Source: Candidatus Zixiibacteriota bacterium
GTDB lineage: Bacteria; Zixibacteria; MSB-5A5; GN15; PGXB01
Assembly: GCA_040753495.1 (NCBI GenBank)
Contig: JBFMEF010000169.1
Coordinates: 1 to 33,442 of the forward strand
DNA: 33,442 nucleotides
Reading direction: 5' to 3'
Below, piece by piece: positions 13,591 through 33,425 of the stretch. The notes under the pieces are model-generated. The model worked only from the letters and a program-made list of their open reading frames with translations. It did not search any database and was not told the DNA's origin. Each line of letters begins with the position of its first letter. The first letter of the stretch is position 1. The translations under genes were made by a program, and so were the position numbers.

Positions 13591-15915
13591 TCACTTCAAG
13601 AGAATCATCTTTCGGGTCGCCTGATTTTGTCCGGCGCTCAGGCGGTAGAAATAGATGCCGGAGGGGAGCGCTTTTCCCTCTGAGTCATTTCCCATCCAGT
13701 CTATGACATGTTCGCCGGCCGGCTGTGCCGCCAGAGAATGATGGAAAACCTGTTCCCCAAGAAGATTATAGACTTTAAATGTCACCGCCGCTCTAAATGG
13801 CAGCGAATAAGGAATTCTGGTCGTGCCATTGAACGGATTGGGGAAATTCTGATGGAGAGAAAACTCCGCCGGCAGCAGACCATCTTCTTCCCCGGTAAAG
13901 TCGGACGCTATGGAGGGAACATACTCCCGGATGGCCACAGCGAATCCTTCTTTCACGGCGGCTATGGTATATTTCTTCTCGAAGTCAAGGGGATAGGTAA
14001 TCACGAAATTTCCGGAATGGTCGCTTTCGCCCTGCTGCAGAATTACTCCCTGCTCGGATAGCGTCACCGCGGCGCCGCTGACAACGGTTCCTTCAGAATG
14101 AAGACTCACCAGAAAGCGCTCTTCCCCCTGGCGGTAAATATCGATGGCAATATCCTGCGGCGCCGCGCGGTACAGCGTTAATGCCGGGTCGCCGTAATAG
14201 TTCTGTCCGTAAATTATGTCTCGCAAATAGGTATGCTCCAGCCAGGAAAGGTACATCGCCCGCGCCGGGGAGTTCTGAGCCTCGGCGAAAAGTTTCTCCA
14301 TAAATGATTCCTGGAGAAGATAACTGGAATAGACCCAGCCCCAACGGGTATTGGCAACCATACCGATCGCCCCTGATGATTCCGCCGCCAGAAGCATCTC
14401 CACGAAGGAATAATCGACAGAATCACCGTACAACGTGTCGAGGTCGTAGCCGCCGACATCGCAGGAAAGGGAGTAGTAAAAAGAAGTTCTGCCGTTGGGA
14501 GCAAGGTTAAGAAGACTCCCGTTGCCGCCGCTTTGAGGAGTGCTGAGAATATAAGAGACCGGCCGCCCCAGGTAGTTGGCGGACTTAACCACAAAACCAT
14601 CGACCCGCCCATGCGCGATAATGTTTATAATGCCATACCCGTCACTAATCCTGGCGATGGAGCTGAACCCGTCGGGGTTGCTCGGATTCAGGTCATCACC
14701 GGAGGGATACTCCACTCCCCACGAGGTATCGACTTCAATATTACCCGGAAGCGCCTCGGCTATGGCGCCATGCTGCCCCCCTTCCGGATAATCGCGCATC
14801 TCATCGGAGCAGAAGAAGAGATGACGGTTTAGGTATGCGTAGTCGCCTTTACCGGGTTCCCGATAATACTGAATCAGCTTATCAATATATCTGGCCACGG
14901 CCGAGGAATCTTTCAAGGGGACTCTTCCCACCAGAATCTCCGGATAGAGGTCGGGAGCGTCCTGATTAGGCTCACCCCAGTTATGGTCGCCGTCTTTATC
15001 CCATTCGCCGCTCAGGTCAGCATAGTACAGGTCGGAGGGCAACAGTTCATATCGGCTGGCCGGGGCAACGATACAGTTATAGTAAACAAGATAGCGGGTC
15101 GGAACCAGGGTCTGGTCGCCGCCAAGCAGAAGATACCGCCCGCCTGCCTGATAGAACTCCTTCAGATAGTTGCGAAGTTTTTCTGCGGCATCAACCCCCG
15201 GATATGCCGTCACAACGCTGTCAACCAGCGCTACGGAGGCGGTAATGCCCAGGCTTCTTTTGAATGACGCCAGCCTTTCATATTCAGCTTGAAGTCTCCG
15301 GTCGGTGACTATCAGATACTCTATTCCGATTGGAAGTCCCCGGACTCCCTCTGTTTGAGAGTTTTTCAAAGAGCGCGGCAACGGCTCACCGCCGGAGAAT
15401 TTTGAAAATACCTCGGTGATTCTCAGCGGCTCTTGAGTCAGAGAGGGGATGTCAATCTCTTTCGCCATAACCAGAATCCCGTCTCTCCCAACGGTAAGAG
15501 GAAGGAGGGAAAGGGCAGTAACTTTTTTTCCATCGAATTCGAGACGCTCTATATTAAATACCGCTTTGGTAATATCCCCGGTGCGACTCTCTGGCGCCCT
15601 GTTTTCTTTATCTATGGAGGTGACGGCGTTATCAAACTGCCGCAGGTGTGACGGTACCGCGCCCCAGTCTGTCAGAGTATCATAGAGAATGGTGAAGGCG
15701 GATTCATTAAGTCCAATATTTCCCTCCCAGTATAAAGTCATAAGCGGAAGAGAAAGCGAGGAGTTTACGGCAAGCTCTTTGGCGCCGGGATAAGAGAAAT
15801 GGTAACCATCCCGGGATTTTTCCAGAAGCGCAGGATGAAAACGCAGGACCGCGCCGTGCAATGAGGAGGTTACCGCTATTACCATCCACAAACAGAGCCA
15901 TTTCCCCGACCGCAT
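13591..15915 (-). CDS. Gingipain-family (C25) cysteine peptidase with type IX-like C-terminal tail
   Basis: 774 residues from ATG 15915, chosen because AGGAG lies five bases upstream and a signal peptide follows (RSGKWLCLWMVIAVTSSLHG); the open frame reaches 16017 but the extra residues lack both. A propeptide-like region leads to the caspase-like C25 domain: EYLIVTDRRLQAEYERL, YLLLGGDQTLVPTRY, LYPEILVGRVP, then catalytic His435 in NIIAHGRVDGF and Cys485 in YYSLSCDVGG. Their 50-residue separation is wider than in RgpB. The tail from about residue 690 (FPNPFNGTTRIPY, VYNLLGEQVF, GIYFYRL, ending MILLK) is the FlgD-like/type IX sorting form. It is expected at the cell surface or outside. Convergent with the glycosyltransferase operon and divergent from mraZ. 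It may process other tailed proteins such as the propeller, but that is inference. Confidence 0.92.
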   Translation of the reverse strand: MRSGKWLCLWMVIAVTSSLHGAVLRFHPALLEKSRDGYHFSYPGAKELAVNSSLSLPLMTLYWEGNIGLNESAFTILYDTLTDWGAVPSHLRQFDNAVTSIDKENRAPESRTGDITKAVFNIERLEFDGKKVTALSLLPLTVGRDGILVMAKEIDIPSLTQEPLRITEVFSKFSGGEPLPRSLKNSQTEGVRGLPIGIEYLIVTDRRLQAEYERLASFKRSLGITASVALVDSVVTAYPGVDAAEKLRNYLKEFYQAGGRYLLLGGDQTLVPTRYLVYYNCIVAPASRYELLPSDLYYADLSGEWDKDGDHNWGEPNQDAPDLYPEILVGRVPLKDSSAVARYIDKLIQYYREPGKGDYAYLNRHLFFCSDEMRDYPEGGQHGAIAEALPGNIEVDTSWGVEYPSGDDLNPSNPDGFSSIARISDGYGIINIIAHGRVDGFVVKSANYLGRPVSYILSTPQSGGNGSLLNLAPNGRTSFYYSLSCDVGGYDLDTLYGDSVDYSFVEMLLAAESSGAIGMVANTRWGWVYSSYLLQESFMEKLFAEAQNSPARAMYLSWLEHTYLRDIIYGQNYYGDPALTLYRAAPQDIAIDIYRQGEERFLVSLHSEGTVVSGAAVTLSEQGVILQQGESDHSGNFVITYPLDFEKKYTIAAVKEGFAVAIREYVPSIASDFTGEEDGLLPAEFSLHQNFPNPFNGTTRIPYSLPFRAAVTFKVYNLLGEQVFHHSLAAQPAGEHVIDWMGNDSEGKALPSGIYFYRLSAGQNQATRKMILLK

Positions 15916-15945
15916 TTTCTCTCCTGTTTCAGTCTGAATTCTGTT

Positions 15946-15951
15946 TTTATA
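15946..15951 (-). promoter_or_regulatory. Possible -10 element of C25 peptidase gene
   Basis: TATAAA reads on the minus strand at 15951-15946. A start near 15939 would leave a leader of about 24 bases that holds the AGGAG before the ATG at 15915. I find no convincing -35 at the usual spacing. Confidence 0.25.
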
Positions 15952-16017
15952 ACTGCAACCGGTCTGCCGCCAGGTTCTGCCATTAAGCGAATCTGGCCAG
16001 GCGCAAGATGTTGTCAT

Positions 16018-31229: not shown

Positions 31230-31250
31230 TAAATCATGGAGGATGAACCG

Positions 31251-32429
31251 ATGAGTAACGAGAGATTGAAATTTGATTTTGACGAGAGTTTTGATGTCTG
31301 CGCCAAAATCAAGGTAGTGGGAGTTGGAGGAGCCGGCGGCAACGCCATCAATCGGATGATTGAGTCGGGGCTGTCGGGAGTTGACTTCATCGCTCTCAAT
31401 ACCGACGCCCAGGTGCTGGAGACCAACCGCGCCGAAAAGAAGATTCAGATTGGGAAACGTCTGACCAAAGGTCTTGGCGCCGGCGCCAATCCGGATATCG
31501 GCAAACGGGCGGCGGAAGAAGACCAGGAAGAGATAAAAGAGGCTCTTGCCGGGGCTGATATGGTTTTTGTCGCGGCCGGAATGGGCGGCGGCACCGGCAC
31601 CGGAGCCAGCCCGATTGTCGCCGAACTGGCTCGTCAGCATGGCGCTCTCACGGTGGCCATTGTCACCAGGCCCTTTATGTGCGAAGGTCTGCGCCGCAAA
31701 GGAAACGCCGACCGCGGCATCCGTGAATTAAAAGAAGCGGCGGATAATATTATCGTTATCGAAAATGAAAAACTTCTGGCTGTGGTTGATAAAGCAACTC
31801 CGGTCAATAAAGCCTTTGCGGTCGCCGATGAGGTGCTCCAGCAGGCAACCCGCGGCATTGCCGAACTGATTACTGTCCCGGGATTGATAAATTGCGATTT
31901 TGCCGATGTCCGCACCGTGATGCTGGAGAAAGGAGGGACGCTGATGTGCACCGGCGTTGCCTCGGGCGAAAACCGCGCCGAACTGGCGGCGCAGCAGGCG
32001 CTCTCCTCGCCGCTGCTGGATAAAGTCTCTATCACCGGCGCCAAAGCGGCGCTGGTCAATATTGCCGGCGGAGAAGATTTGACCCTCTTTGAGGTCAACT
32101 CCGTCATGTCGGTCATCTACCAGGCGACCGGCTCCGAGGCGAACCTGATTGTCGGGACGGTCGTCGACCAGACTCTCAAAGACCAGGTACGAGTTACGGT
32201 CATCGCCACCGGCTTCGGTGGAGAAGTTCAGGAAGCGCTTCCGGCGGAAGAGAAAGAGACTGTCGTCTCTTCACAGCCGGCGAAAGTGATGTCGCTGTTT
32301 CCCGAGGCGTCCACTTTCCCGATGAGGAAGGCGGCGGGAGGAAATGGCGGAAACGGACGAGGAAAGATGCCCTCTTTCCAGGAGATTGACCGTCAGATAC
32401 CGGCATATATTCGCAAGATTGACGAATAG
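31251..32429 (+). CDS. ftsZ: Tubulin-like division protein FtsZ
   Basis: A 392-residue GTPase that polymerises into the Z ring. ATG 31251 is preferred because GGAGG at 31238-31242 is eight bases upstream; the in-frame ATG at 31236 overlaps that site and would add five residues. Motifs are [21 protein letters not shown], the tubulin signature GGGTGTGAS (112-120), [17 protein letters not shown] and [16 protein letters not shown] linker of roughly 50 residues rich in Gly, Glu and Pro ends in the C-terminal peptide [13 protein letters not shown], which binds FtsA. A strong terminator follows 34 bases after the stop, so this is the last gene of the cluster. Confidence 0.98.
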
Positions 32430-32462: not shown

Positions 32463-32503
32463 GGACCGCCGGTCACGTTACCCGGCCGGCGGTCCAAATT
32501 TTT
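32463..32503 (+). terminator. Rho-independent terminator of the dcw cluster
   Basis: GGACCGCCGG (32463-32472) pairs perfectly with CCGGCGGTCC (32486-32495) around a 13-base loop, followed by AAA and five T (32499-32503). The GC-rich 10-bp stem and T-run are the classical form, 34 bases after the ftsZ stop. Confidence 0.85.
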
Positions 32504-32573
32504 CCATAAAATGTGGGAATTTCCCCATAAATTTATTGGTGCAGTCAGATGGCGCTGCCGATAAGTCGCTGGT

Positions 32574-32617
32574 GCGCAAGCAGATATCTATCTGCCTGGC
32601 AGGCACAGGGCTTGCGC
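32574..32617. repeat. Nested inverted repeats before the flagellin gene
   Basis: The outer arms are GCGCAAGC (32574-32581) and GCTTGCGC (32610-32617). Inside lie GCAGATA/TATCTGC around TC (32580-32595) and TGCCTG-G-CAGGCA (32593-32605). An 8-base direct repeat, CCTGGCAG, occurs at 32595 and 32626. The outer right arm covers the -12 element and the third palindrome covers the -24 element of the promoter listed next. Confidence 0.55.
32601..32616 (+). promoter_or_regulatory. Sigma-54-type promoter of the flagellin gene
   Basis: AGGCACAGGGCTTGCG aligns with the sigma-54 consensus TGGCACGrNNNTTGCW: GGCAC at -24, TTGC at -12, and the invariant GG (32602-32603) and GC (32614-32615) separated by ten bases. 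A start near 32627 gives a leader of about 34 bases containing GGGAGG, which also fixes the flagellin ATG at 32661 rather than 32622. Confidence 0.65.
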
Positions 32618-32660
32618 TGAAATGCCCTGGCAGATTACACTTTTGCTTCAGGGAGGCAAA

Positions 32661-33425
32661 ATGGGCTTTCGTATCTCCAATAATATCGGGGCTAACTTCA
32701 TAACGTTAAACCTCAACCGGGCGTATGGCGCAATGCTCAAATCGATGGAAAAACTCTCTTCGGGTTACCGAATCAACCGCGCCTCGGATGACCCGGCCGG
32801 ATTAGTCATCTCGGAGCAGATGCGCGCCCGCATTGCTTCGCTGAATCAGGAAATCGAGAATACCACCATCACGATTAACAAATATCAGACGGCCGATTCC
32901 GCCGCGCTGGAGTTGCGCCAGCAGCTGACCGAACTTCGCTCACTGGCGGTTGCCGCCGCCAACGGCGGATACAACGATGAGAACATCATTCGAGCATATC
33001 AGGCCGAGGCGGACAATATCGTGCAAAACTATAACCGCATAATTCAGAATACATCCTTCGGAACGCAAAATCTTCTCGATGGCTCCCTCGGTTCGGTGGC
33101 GCTGGTGGCGCCAATGGCGCCGGTGGACCTTTCCAGCCCGGAAGATGCCCAGGCGGCGCTCAATGCTATCGATATCGAAATATCCCGCGTGGATGCGTCA
33201 CTTATTGAAATCGGGGCGACTCAAAAAAACGACCTGGAAAGCCGTCTGGCAAACCTTCGGATCGAAGTCCAGAATCTGACAGCGTCGGAATCGCAGATAC
33301 GGGACCTCGATTTTATAACGGAGTATTCCACCTTTCTGAGGAATAGATTAGTGGTGCAGTCGGCGATGTCGCTTTTGTCGCATCAGAATCTCTCTTCGCA
33401 GACAGTGCTGAAATTGCTGTCGTGA
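32661..33425 (+). CDS. fliC: Short flagellin
   Basis: A 254-residue flagellin, the subunit of the external filament. ATG 32661 has GGGAGG four bases upstream and gives MGFRISNNIGANFITLNLNR; an earlier in-frame ATG at 32622 lies before the predicted transcription start. The N-terminal D0/D1 part carries MEKLSSGYRINRASDDPAGLVISEQMRARI, a standard flagellin signature, and the C-terminal part has IRDLDFITEYSTFLRNRLVVQSAMSLLSHQN and ends VLKLLS. Only a short segment between about 135 and 165 separates the two halves, so the surface domains D2/D3 are absent. FlgL is a possible alternative, but length and both termini fit flagellin better. No signal peptide, as expected for export by the flagellar apparatus. 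Confidence 0.92.
   Translation: MGFRISNNIGANFITLNLNRAYGAMLKSMEKLSSGYRINRASDDPAGLVISEQMRARIASLNQEIENTTITINKYQTADSAALELRQQLTELRSLAVAAANGGYNDENIIRAYQAEADNIVQNYNRIIQNTSFGTQNLLDGSLGSVALVAPMAPVDLSSPEDAQAALNAIDIEISRVDASLIEIGATQKNDLESRLANLRIEVQNLTASESQIRDLDFITEYSTFLRNRLVVQSAMSLLSHQNLSSQTVLKLLS

Follow-up and report, generated by a model that had tools for sequence, protein, structure and literature searches.

How is the transcription of two flagellins divided between sigma factors, and how are unlinked genes for surface proteins gathered under a single sigma-54 activator? In flagellin pairs of the flaA/flaB kind, the sigma-54 flagellin is controlled by the flagellar activator FlgR. In Campylobacter jejuni, flaA is transcribed with sigma-28 and flaB with sigma-54, and the benefits of the sigma-54 second flagellin are described as yet to be unraveled (PMC5126078). 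The PrsK/PrsR system of the Proteobacteria places an activator motif, a spacer, and a sigma-54 promoter ahead of PEP-CTERM genes (PMC1569441). For activators of the FlbD type, the reported site is GGCA-N4-TGCC (PMC3333781). A sigma-54 promoter with an enhancer is thus an already known kind of arrangement, as is the sigma-28/sigma-54 flagellin split, which is known from Campylobacter (PMC5126078). Our searches of the open-licence literature turned up neither the TATGGG-N6-CCCATA motif considered here nor its gene set, and no account of a flagellin gene beside ftsZ or of Zixibacteria genes regulated through sigma-54.

The window, by which we mean the whole 33,442-nt stretch of DNA analyzed (contig C169), belongs to a draft genome, G000, that totals 3.08 Mb. 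We propose, with a probability of roughly 0.73, that a secondary flagellin encoded here has moved from the late sigma-28 class to a putative sigma-54 activator that would also control other surface proteins. As part of this explanation, and with the same confidence, the flagellin gene would form its own transcription unit behind ftsZ. At the 3' end of the contig, a Mur ligase gene, ftsQ, ftsA, and ftsZ are followed by the flagellin gene, with these features:

31236..32429, plus strand: ftsZ (Pfam Tubulin and FtsZ_C), which closes the division and cell-wall cluster and lies immediately 5' of the flagellin gene
32463..32503, plus strand: putative ftsZ terminator from the inverted-repeat list, a 10-bp inverted repeat GGACCGCCGG/CCGGCGGTCC followed by AAATTTTT
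32650..32656, plus strand: ribosome-binding site AGGGAGG, read from the sequence
32661..33425, plus strand: short flagellin, 254 aa, start ATG at 32661, with Pfam Flagellin_N and Flagellin_C

The element at 32463..32503 is probably the terminator of ftsZ; its repeat (32463-32495) shows no difference in the sister species. The loop, at 13 nt, exceeds the limit of the terminator scan. Transcription of the short flagellin gene would begin near 32627, a position deduced from the -12 element, and the start at 32622 given for this gene in the list of open reading frames precedes that predicted transcript start. The short-flagellin query was matched in 58 of 60 relatives, a count that includes long flagellins. 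In 18 of the 29 short-flagellin loci (L002-L031; families f1 and f4), ftsZ lies directly 5' of the flagellin gene, and this neighborhood, in which division genes meet a filament gene, is conserved; the upstream DNA available for L010, counted among the 29, is only 213 nt. Three further observations concern the locus and its relatives. In genome G046 (C15, 13314-14057), a copy of the short flagellin is interrupted by one internal TAA. On the minus strand of the window, positions 13591-16017 encode a Peptidase C25 protein with a C-terminal tail like those of type IX secretion, 5' of mraZ and the division cluster. The sister-species record (L082, DYGG01000021.1) is titled Ignavibacterium sp., although other relatives carry the title Candidatus Zixiibacteriota; the assembly is probably mislabelled.

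Upstream of the short flagellin we find two overlapping registers of GG-N10-GC:

32601..32616, plus strand: sigma-54 -24/-12 promoter AGGCACAGGGCTTGCG, of the form AGGCAC-N5-TTGC, with GG at 32602-32603 and GC at 32614-32615, 44 nt before the ATG and backed by orthologue conservation
32597..32612, plus strand: second, weaker register TGGCAGGCACAGGGCT, scoring 7.5 against 8.6 for AGGCACAGGGCTTGCG

The sigma-54 consensus is TGGCACG-N4-TTGCA, from which AGGCACAGGGCTTGCG departs at three positions. By a score whose weights were set by hand from this consensus, two other sites in the 33-kb contig equal or exceed AGGCACAGGGCTTGCG; the overlapping register TGGCAGGCACAGGGCT is probably unused. Across the genome, exact matches to GGCAC-N5-TTGC number 20, against 10 for the reversed control pattern. 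Not outstanding by its sequence alone, the promoter is convincing because it is conserved in orthologues. Of 29 short-flagellin promoters (L013, with 2 nt of upstream DNA, was excluded from all promoter counts), 28 have a GG-N10-GC element that scores at least 7.2 and lies 27 to 57 nt upstream of the start; for 25 of the 29 loci, shuffling the upstream DNA of the locus itself gives P <=0.05 for the promoter. The one miss, L028, has no GG-N10-GC upstream of its flagellin; it is counted within the 29, but the tests of spacing, half-site permutation, and inverted repeats used the other 28 loci. The promoter stretch CTGGCAGGCACAGGGCTTGC is unchanged in the sister species (G001), whose flagellin is 94% identical. 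The initial annotation had proposed sigma-54 control of this flagellin, and had named the presence of rpoN and the retention of GG-N10-GC in relatives with the same flagellin as the points on which the proposal turned. Both favor it: rpoN is present (PF04552 at G000 C94, E 1.2e-59), the element is kept in those 28 promoters, and the assignment of the short-flagellin promoter to the sigma-54 type is well supported.

The genome encodes a second flagellin, of 722 aa, in the flagellar cluster on contig C101. Its upstream region contains TTAAGTTT-N11-GCCGATTA, which agrees with the sigma-28 consensus at 14 of 16 positions (a level reached in 0 of 300 shuffles), and the 250 nt upstream contain no GG-N10-GC. 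Similarly, among 20 upstream regions of long flagellins from relatives, 16 have a sigma-28-like site (at least 12/16), and none has either a sigma-54 site scoring at least 7.2 or the TATGGG-N6-CCCATA palindrome at 10/12 or better. Sigma-28-like sites of at least 12/16 occur in none of the 29 short-flagellin regions. By its promoter motif, the main (long) flagellin belongs to the sigma-28 type, and the sigma-28/sigma-54 split is found here at the level of promoter motifs, the long flagellin being sigma-28-like and the short one sigma-54. In this respect the pair resembles flaA and flaB of C. jejuni (PMC5126078). Unlike flaB, however, the sigma-54 flagellin here is encoded away from the principal flagellar cluster, frequently behind ftsZ; its length is far below that of the main flagellin; and its upstream site is common to the flagellin and to non-flagellar surface genes.

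That upstream site is a palindrome:

32512..32529, no strand assigned: candidate activator (enhancer) site TGTGGGAATTTCCCCATA, matching TATGGG-N6-CCCATA at 11 of 12 positions

It lies 71 nt before the -24 hexamer (~72 nt), outside the span described in the initial annotation. The suggestion made there of a regulator site unusually close to the promoter gives way to a conserved palindrome about 72 nt upstream, a distance usual for sigma-54 enhancers. The palindrome matches at 12/12 positions in the sister species G001. It reaches at least 10/12 in 18 of the 29 short-flagellin promoters and falls below 10/12 in the other 11. Within the 28-promoter spacing set, the 17 palindromes of at least 10/12 stand at 70-74 nt (nine), 81-87 nt (seven), and 97 nt (one); the 70-74 nt spacing is that of the window's own family, and the longer spacings are those of other families of the order. 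When the half-site was permuted, TATGGG ranked first of 60 in the 28 flagellin promoters (9.86 against a mean of 7.36, SD 0.46).

We then define a combined pattern as the palindrome, 66-92 nt, and GG-N9-TGC, with the reversed pattern as its control. In 60 related genomes, which are non-independent samples, this pattern has 27 matches against 1 for the control; in 118 genomes of the phylum, some from families outside the order, a slightly stricter form has 31 matches and its control 0. The strict combined pattern has no match in the own genome, where TGTGGGAATTTCCCCATA has one mismatch. The palindrome alone, with one mismatch allowed, is not enriched in the own genome (25 against 28 for the control); it is the combination of palindrome and promoter, together with its spacing, that is enriched. 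Enumeration of 7-mers between the palindrome and the promoter gave no trusted second motif above the shuffled maximum.

Which genes lie behind the palindrome and promoter? By our reading, 19 of the 27 combined-pattern matches precede a plausible gene, and 8 are without a convincing downstream gene. The classes are the short flagellin (4), a protein of ~485 aa with an N-terminal membrane segment (4), a 175-aa secreted protein (3), M6 peptidase-like proteins (2), small Cys-rich proteins (2), and one each of a PEP-CTERM protein, a multihaem cytochrome, a DUF7305 protein, and a lipoprotein. Five of these targets were compared with Pfam (DUF7305, Peptidase_M6, no family, PEP-CTERM, and CXXCH cytochrome), and the others were judged from their sequences. 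In the own genome, the palindrome and promoter precede the short flagellin, a protein of the 485-aa type (C166), and an operon of the 175-aa type (C143). The C166 gene (near 2302, minus strand) belongs to a group of 484-529-aa proteins that have a basic N-terminus, one membrane segment, and no Pfam match; these stand repeatedly behind the palindrome in family f1. In genome G003 (C31, 69050-69157; L105), a tandem pair of ATGGG-N6-CCCAT full-core palindromes is found before an M6 peptidase-like gene.

The C143 operon (G000 C143 1814-8067, L165) encodes four DUF4402-like secreted proteins followed by proteins of 290 aa and 863 aa. The first DUF4402-like protein falls below the Pfam cut-off and was matched in 43 of the 60 relatives; the 290-aa and 863-aa proteins have no Pfam match over the cut-off. 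The operon is probably a fimbria-like (pilin-like) system. All 30 orthologues of the 175-aa protein have an upstream GG-N10-GC scoring at least 8.0, and 18 of the 30 have the palindrome at 10/12 or better, at 74, 84-88, 96, or 107 nt. In a permutation test kept separate from that on the flagellins, TATGGG again ranked first of 60 half-sites (9.63 against a mean of 7.36, SD 0.43) in 27 DUF4402 promoters, L133, L143, and L150 having been removed as chosen by the motif.

Taken over the flagellin and DUF4402 sets, the distances from palindrome to promoter cluster at 70-74, 81-88, 96-97, and 107 nt. Spacing classes about 11 nt apart would agree with an activator bound on a single side of the DNA; the best-fitting period with both gene sets pooled is 12-13 bp, not 10.5, so a shared DNA helix face for the upstream sites is only suggested. 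The near-fixed spacing also bears on whether the palindrome could be the terminator of ftsZ or a chance repeat, as its being flagged by the terminator scan and the position of ftsZ upstream in 18 of the 29 loci might imply. Against this stand the spacing itself and the longer inverted repeat that ftsZ already has at 32463-32495. In 15 of the 18 palindrome-bearing DUF4402 loci, moreover, the upstream gene is divergent and no terminator is needed there, and no long T-run follows the palindrome. We regard this origin of the palindrome as very improbable, and take TGTGGGAATTTCCCCATA to be the probable activator site of the short-flagellin promoter.

We propose that a putative NtrC-type sigma-54 activator binds the palindrome at 32512-32529 and, once bound, would reach the promoter through a DNA loop of about 72 bp. 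This candidate site also precedes the DUF4402 pilin-like operon and the genes for a conserved ~490-aa membrane-anchored protein, M6 peptidases, and other exported proteins. Since the site is common to genes for surface and exported proteins, the short flagellin would be switched together with those, separately from the late flagellar genes. The promoter, the upstream palindrome, their near-fixed spacing, and their sharing between unrelated genes can be read in the DNA; from these we infer activator binding, looping, co-expression, and a signal.

Which activator might read the site? The genome encodes about 19 strong sigma-54 activator domains, and no linkage of site to activator was found in the neighborhoods of the DUF4402 operon, the short flagellin, and several activators. 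The initial annotation had suggested looking for a FlrC/FlgR-like activator, and one is present in the flagellar cluster next to a PAS histidine kinase (G000 C101, 34381-35733 and 35730-37046), with an orthologue (60-95% identical) in 5 of 6 genomes tested. If this activator read the upstream palindrome, the short flagellin would be an ordinary middle flagellar gene, comparable to the sigma-54 flagellin flaB beside sigma-28 flaA in Campylobacter (PMC5126078). However, no flagellar gene of the C101 cluster pairs the palindrome (at least 9/12) with a sigma-54 promoter; flgB, flgF, and motA have good -24/-12 elements, yet lack a paired palindrome; and the palindrome precedes non-flagellar genes. 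We therefore consider a reading by the flagellar activator unlikely. In G003, an assembly that is 81% complete, the flagellar activator is absent and perfect palindrome sites are kept; G003 also retains flhA, so the activator gap may be an assembly loss. FlbD systems (Caulobacter; Desulfovibrio DVU1063) likewise combine sigma-54 promoters of flagellar genes with a palindromic site for the activator. In contrast to them, the palindrome here is not GGCA-N4-TGCC, a motif that was also not found on direct reading of 32574-32635, and the promoters of the flagellar cluster here are without the palindrome.

The PrsK/PrsR system offers another candidate. Its layout is similar, with an activator motif, a spacer, -24/-12 elements, and surface proteins as products (PMC1569441); it too has many unlinked single promoters for surface proteins, and one target of the palindrome is a PEP-CTERM protein. 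But the PrsR model (TIGR02915) exceeds its cut-off in 8 of the 60 genomes and not in the own genome, most genomes here thus having no PrsR over the cut-off, and the PrsR motif is one of 17 nt ending in TTTACA, with a different mean spacing, whereas here it is TATGGG-N6-CCCATA. The family model, for most genomes, and the motif mismatch exclude PrsR as the activator, and the idea that this regulon is a PEP-CTERM/PrsR system has almost no chance of being right.

Finally, the promoter itself is overlaid by repeats, in whose palindromes the initial annotation had seen possible activator or repressor sites:

32574-32581 / 32610-32617, no strand assigned: outer inverted repeat GCGCAAGC / GCTTGCGC, broken in the sister species
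32580..32595, no strand assigned: palindrome GCAGATATCTATCTGC, of which the sister species keeps only the inner AGATATCTATCT
32593..32605, no strand assigned: palindrome TGCCTGGCAGGCA, its right half overlapping the -24 element and its left half broken in the sister species
32595-32602 and 32626-32633, plus strand: direct repeat CCTGGCAG, both copies altered in the sister species

Each of these elements was found where it had been placed, and their density is above chance. The arm sum of inverted repeats in 32574-32635 is 34. Of 2000 dinucleotide shuffles, 0.15% reach this value (P 0.0015); among 3338 sliding windows of the contig, none does. The repeats overlap in bases and are therefore not independent. 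The inner AGATATCTATCT of GCAGATATCTATCTGC is intact in the sister species, and 7 of 28 orthologues have ATATCT (about 32584-32589) in the 50 nt preceding the -24 element, where 1.4 would be expected, a weak excess for a motif chosen post hoc. Against a regulatory role, the symmetry of every palindrome is reduced or gone in the sister species, where the second copy of CCTGGCAG is changed and the equivalent 62 nt contain no inverted repeat of at least 6 bp. Nor does any of the 27 other promoters scored, the sister's included, have a comparable repeat set, the top arm sum among them being 12 against 33 here. Lost within one speciation step, the palindromes on the promoter are unsupported as regulator sites; we think it improbable that they serve as such, and most likely they are species-specific and without a conserved role. 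The accompanying idea of a second signal coupled to filament synthesis survives in spirit, because the promoter set includes non-flagellar genes, but not with these palindromes as its carriers.

The reading we prefer, in which the short flagellin answers to an activator shared with other surface proteins, may be extended one step further, although we put this forward tentatively and think it somewhat less likely than its opposite. The short flagellin could stand outside the ordinary swimming programme as a subunit of a surface or junction filament, made together with the DUF4402 fimbria-like operon and the secreted proteins under one sigma-54 activator of an attachment type, so that the make-up of the filament would change as adhesive structures are built. 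On sequence evidence alone, the analysis outlines a sigma-54 regulon for an uncultured phylum, with a probable operator and a spacing rule, in which a second flagellin would be linked with pilus-like and secreted proteins rather than with the flagellar cascade. The motif also provides a handle with which the activator may be found by the profile method that revealed PrsR.
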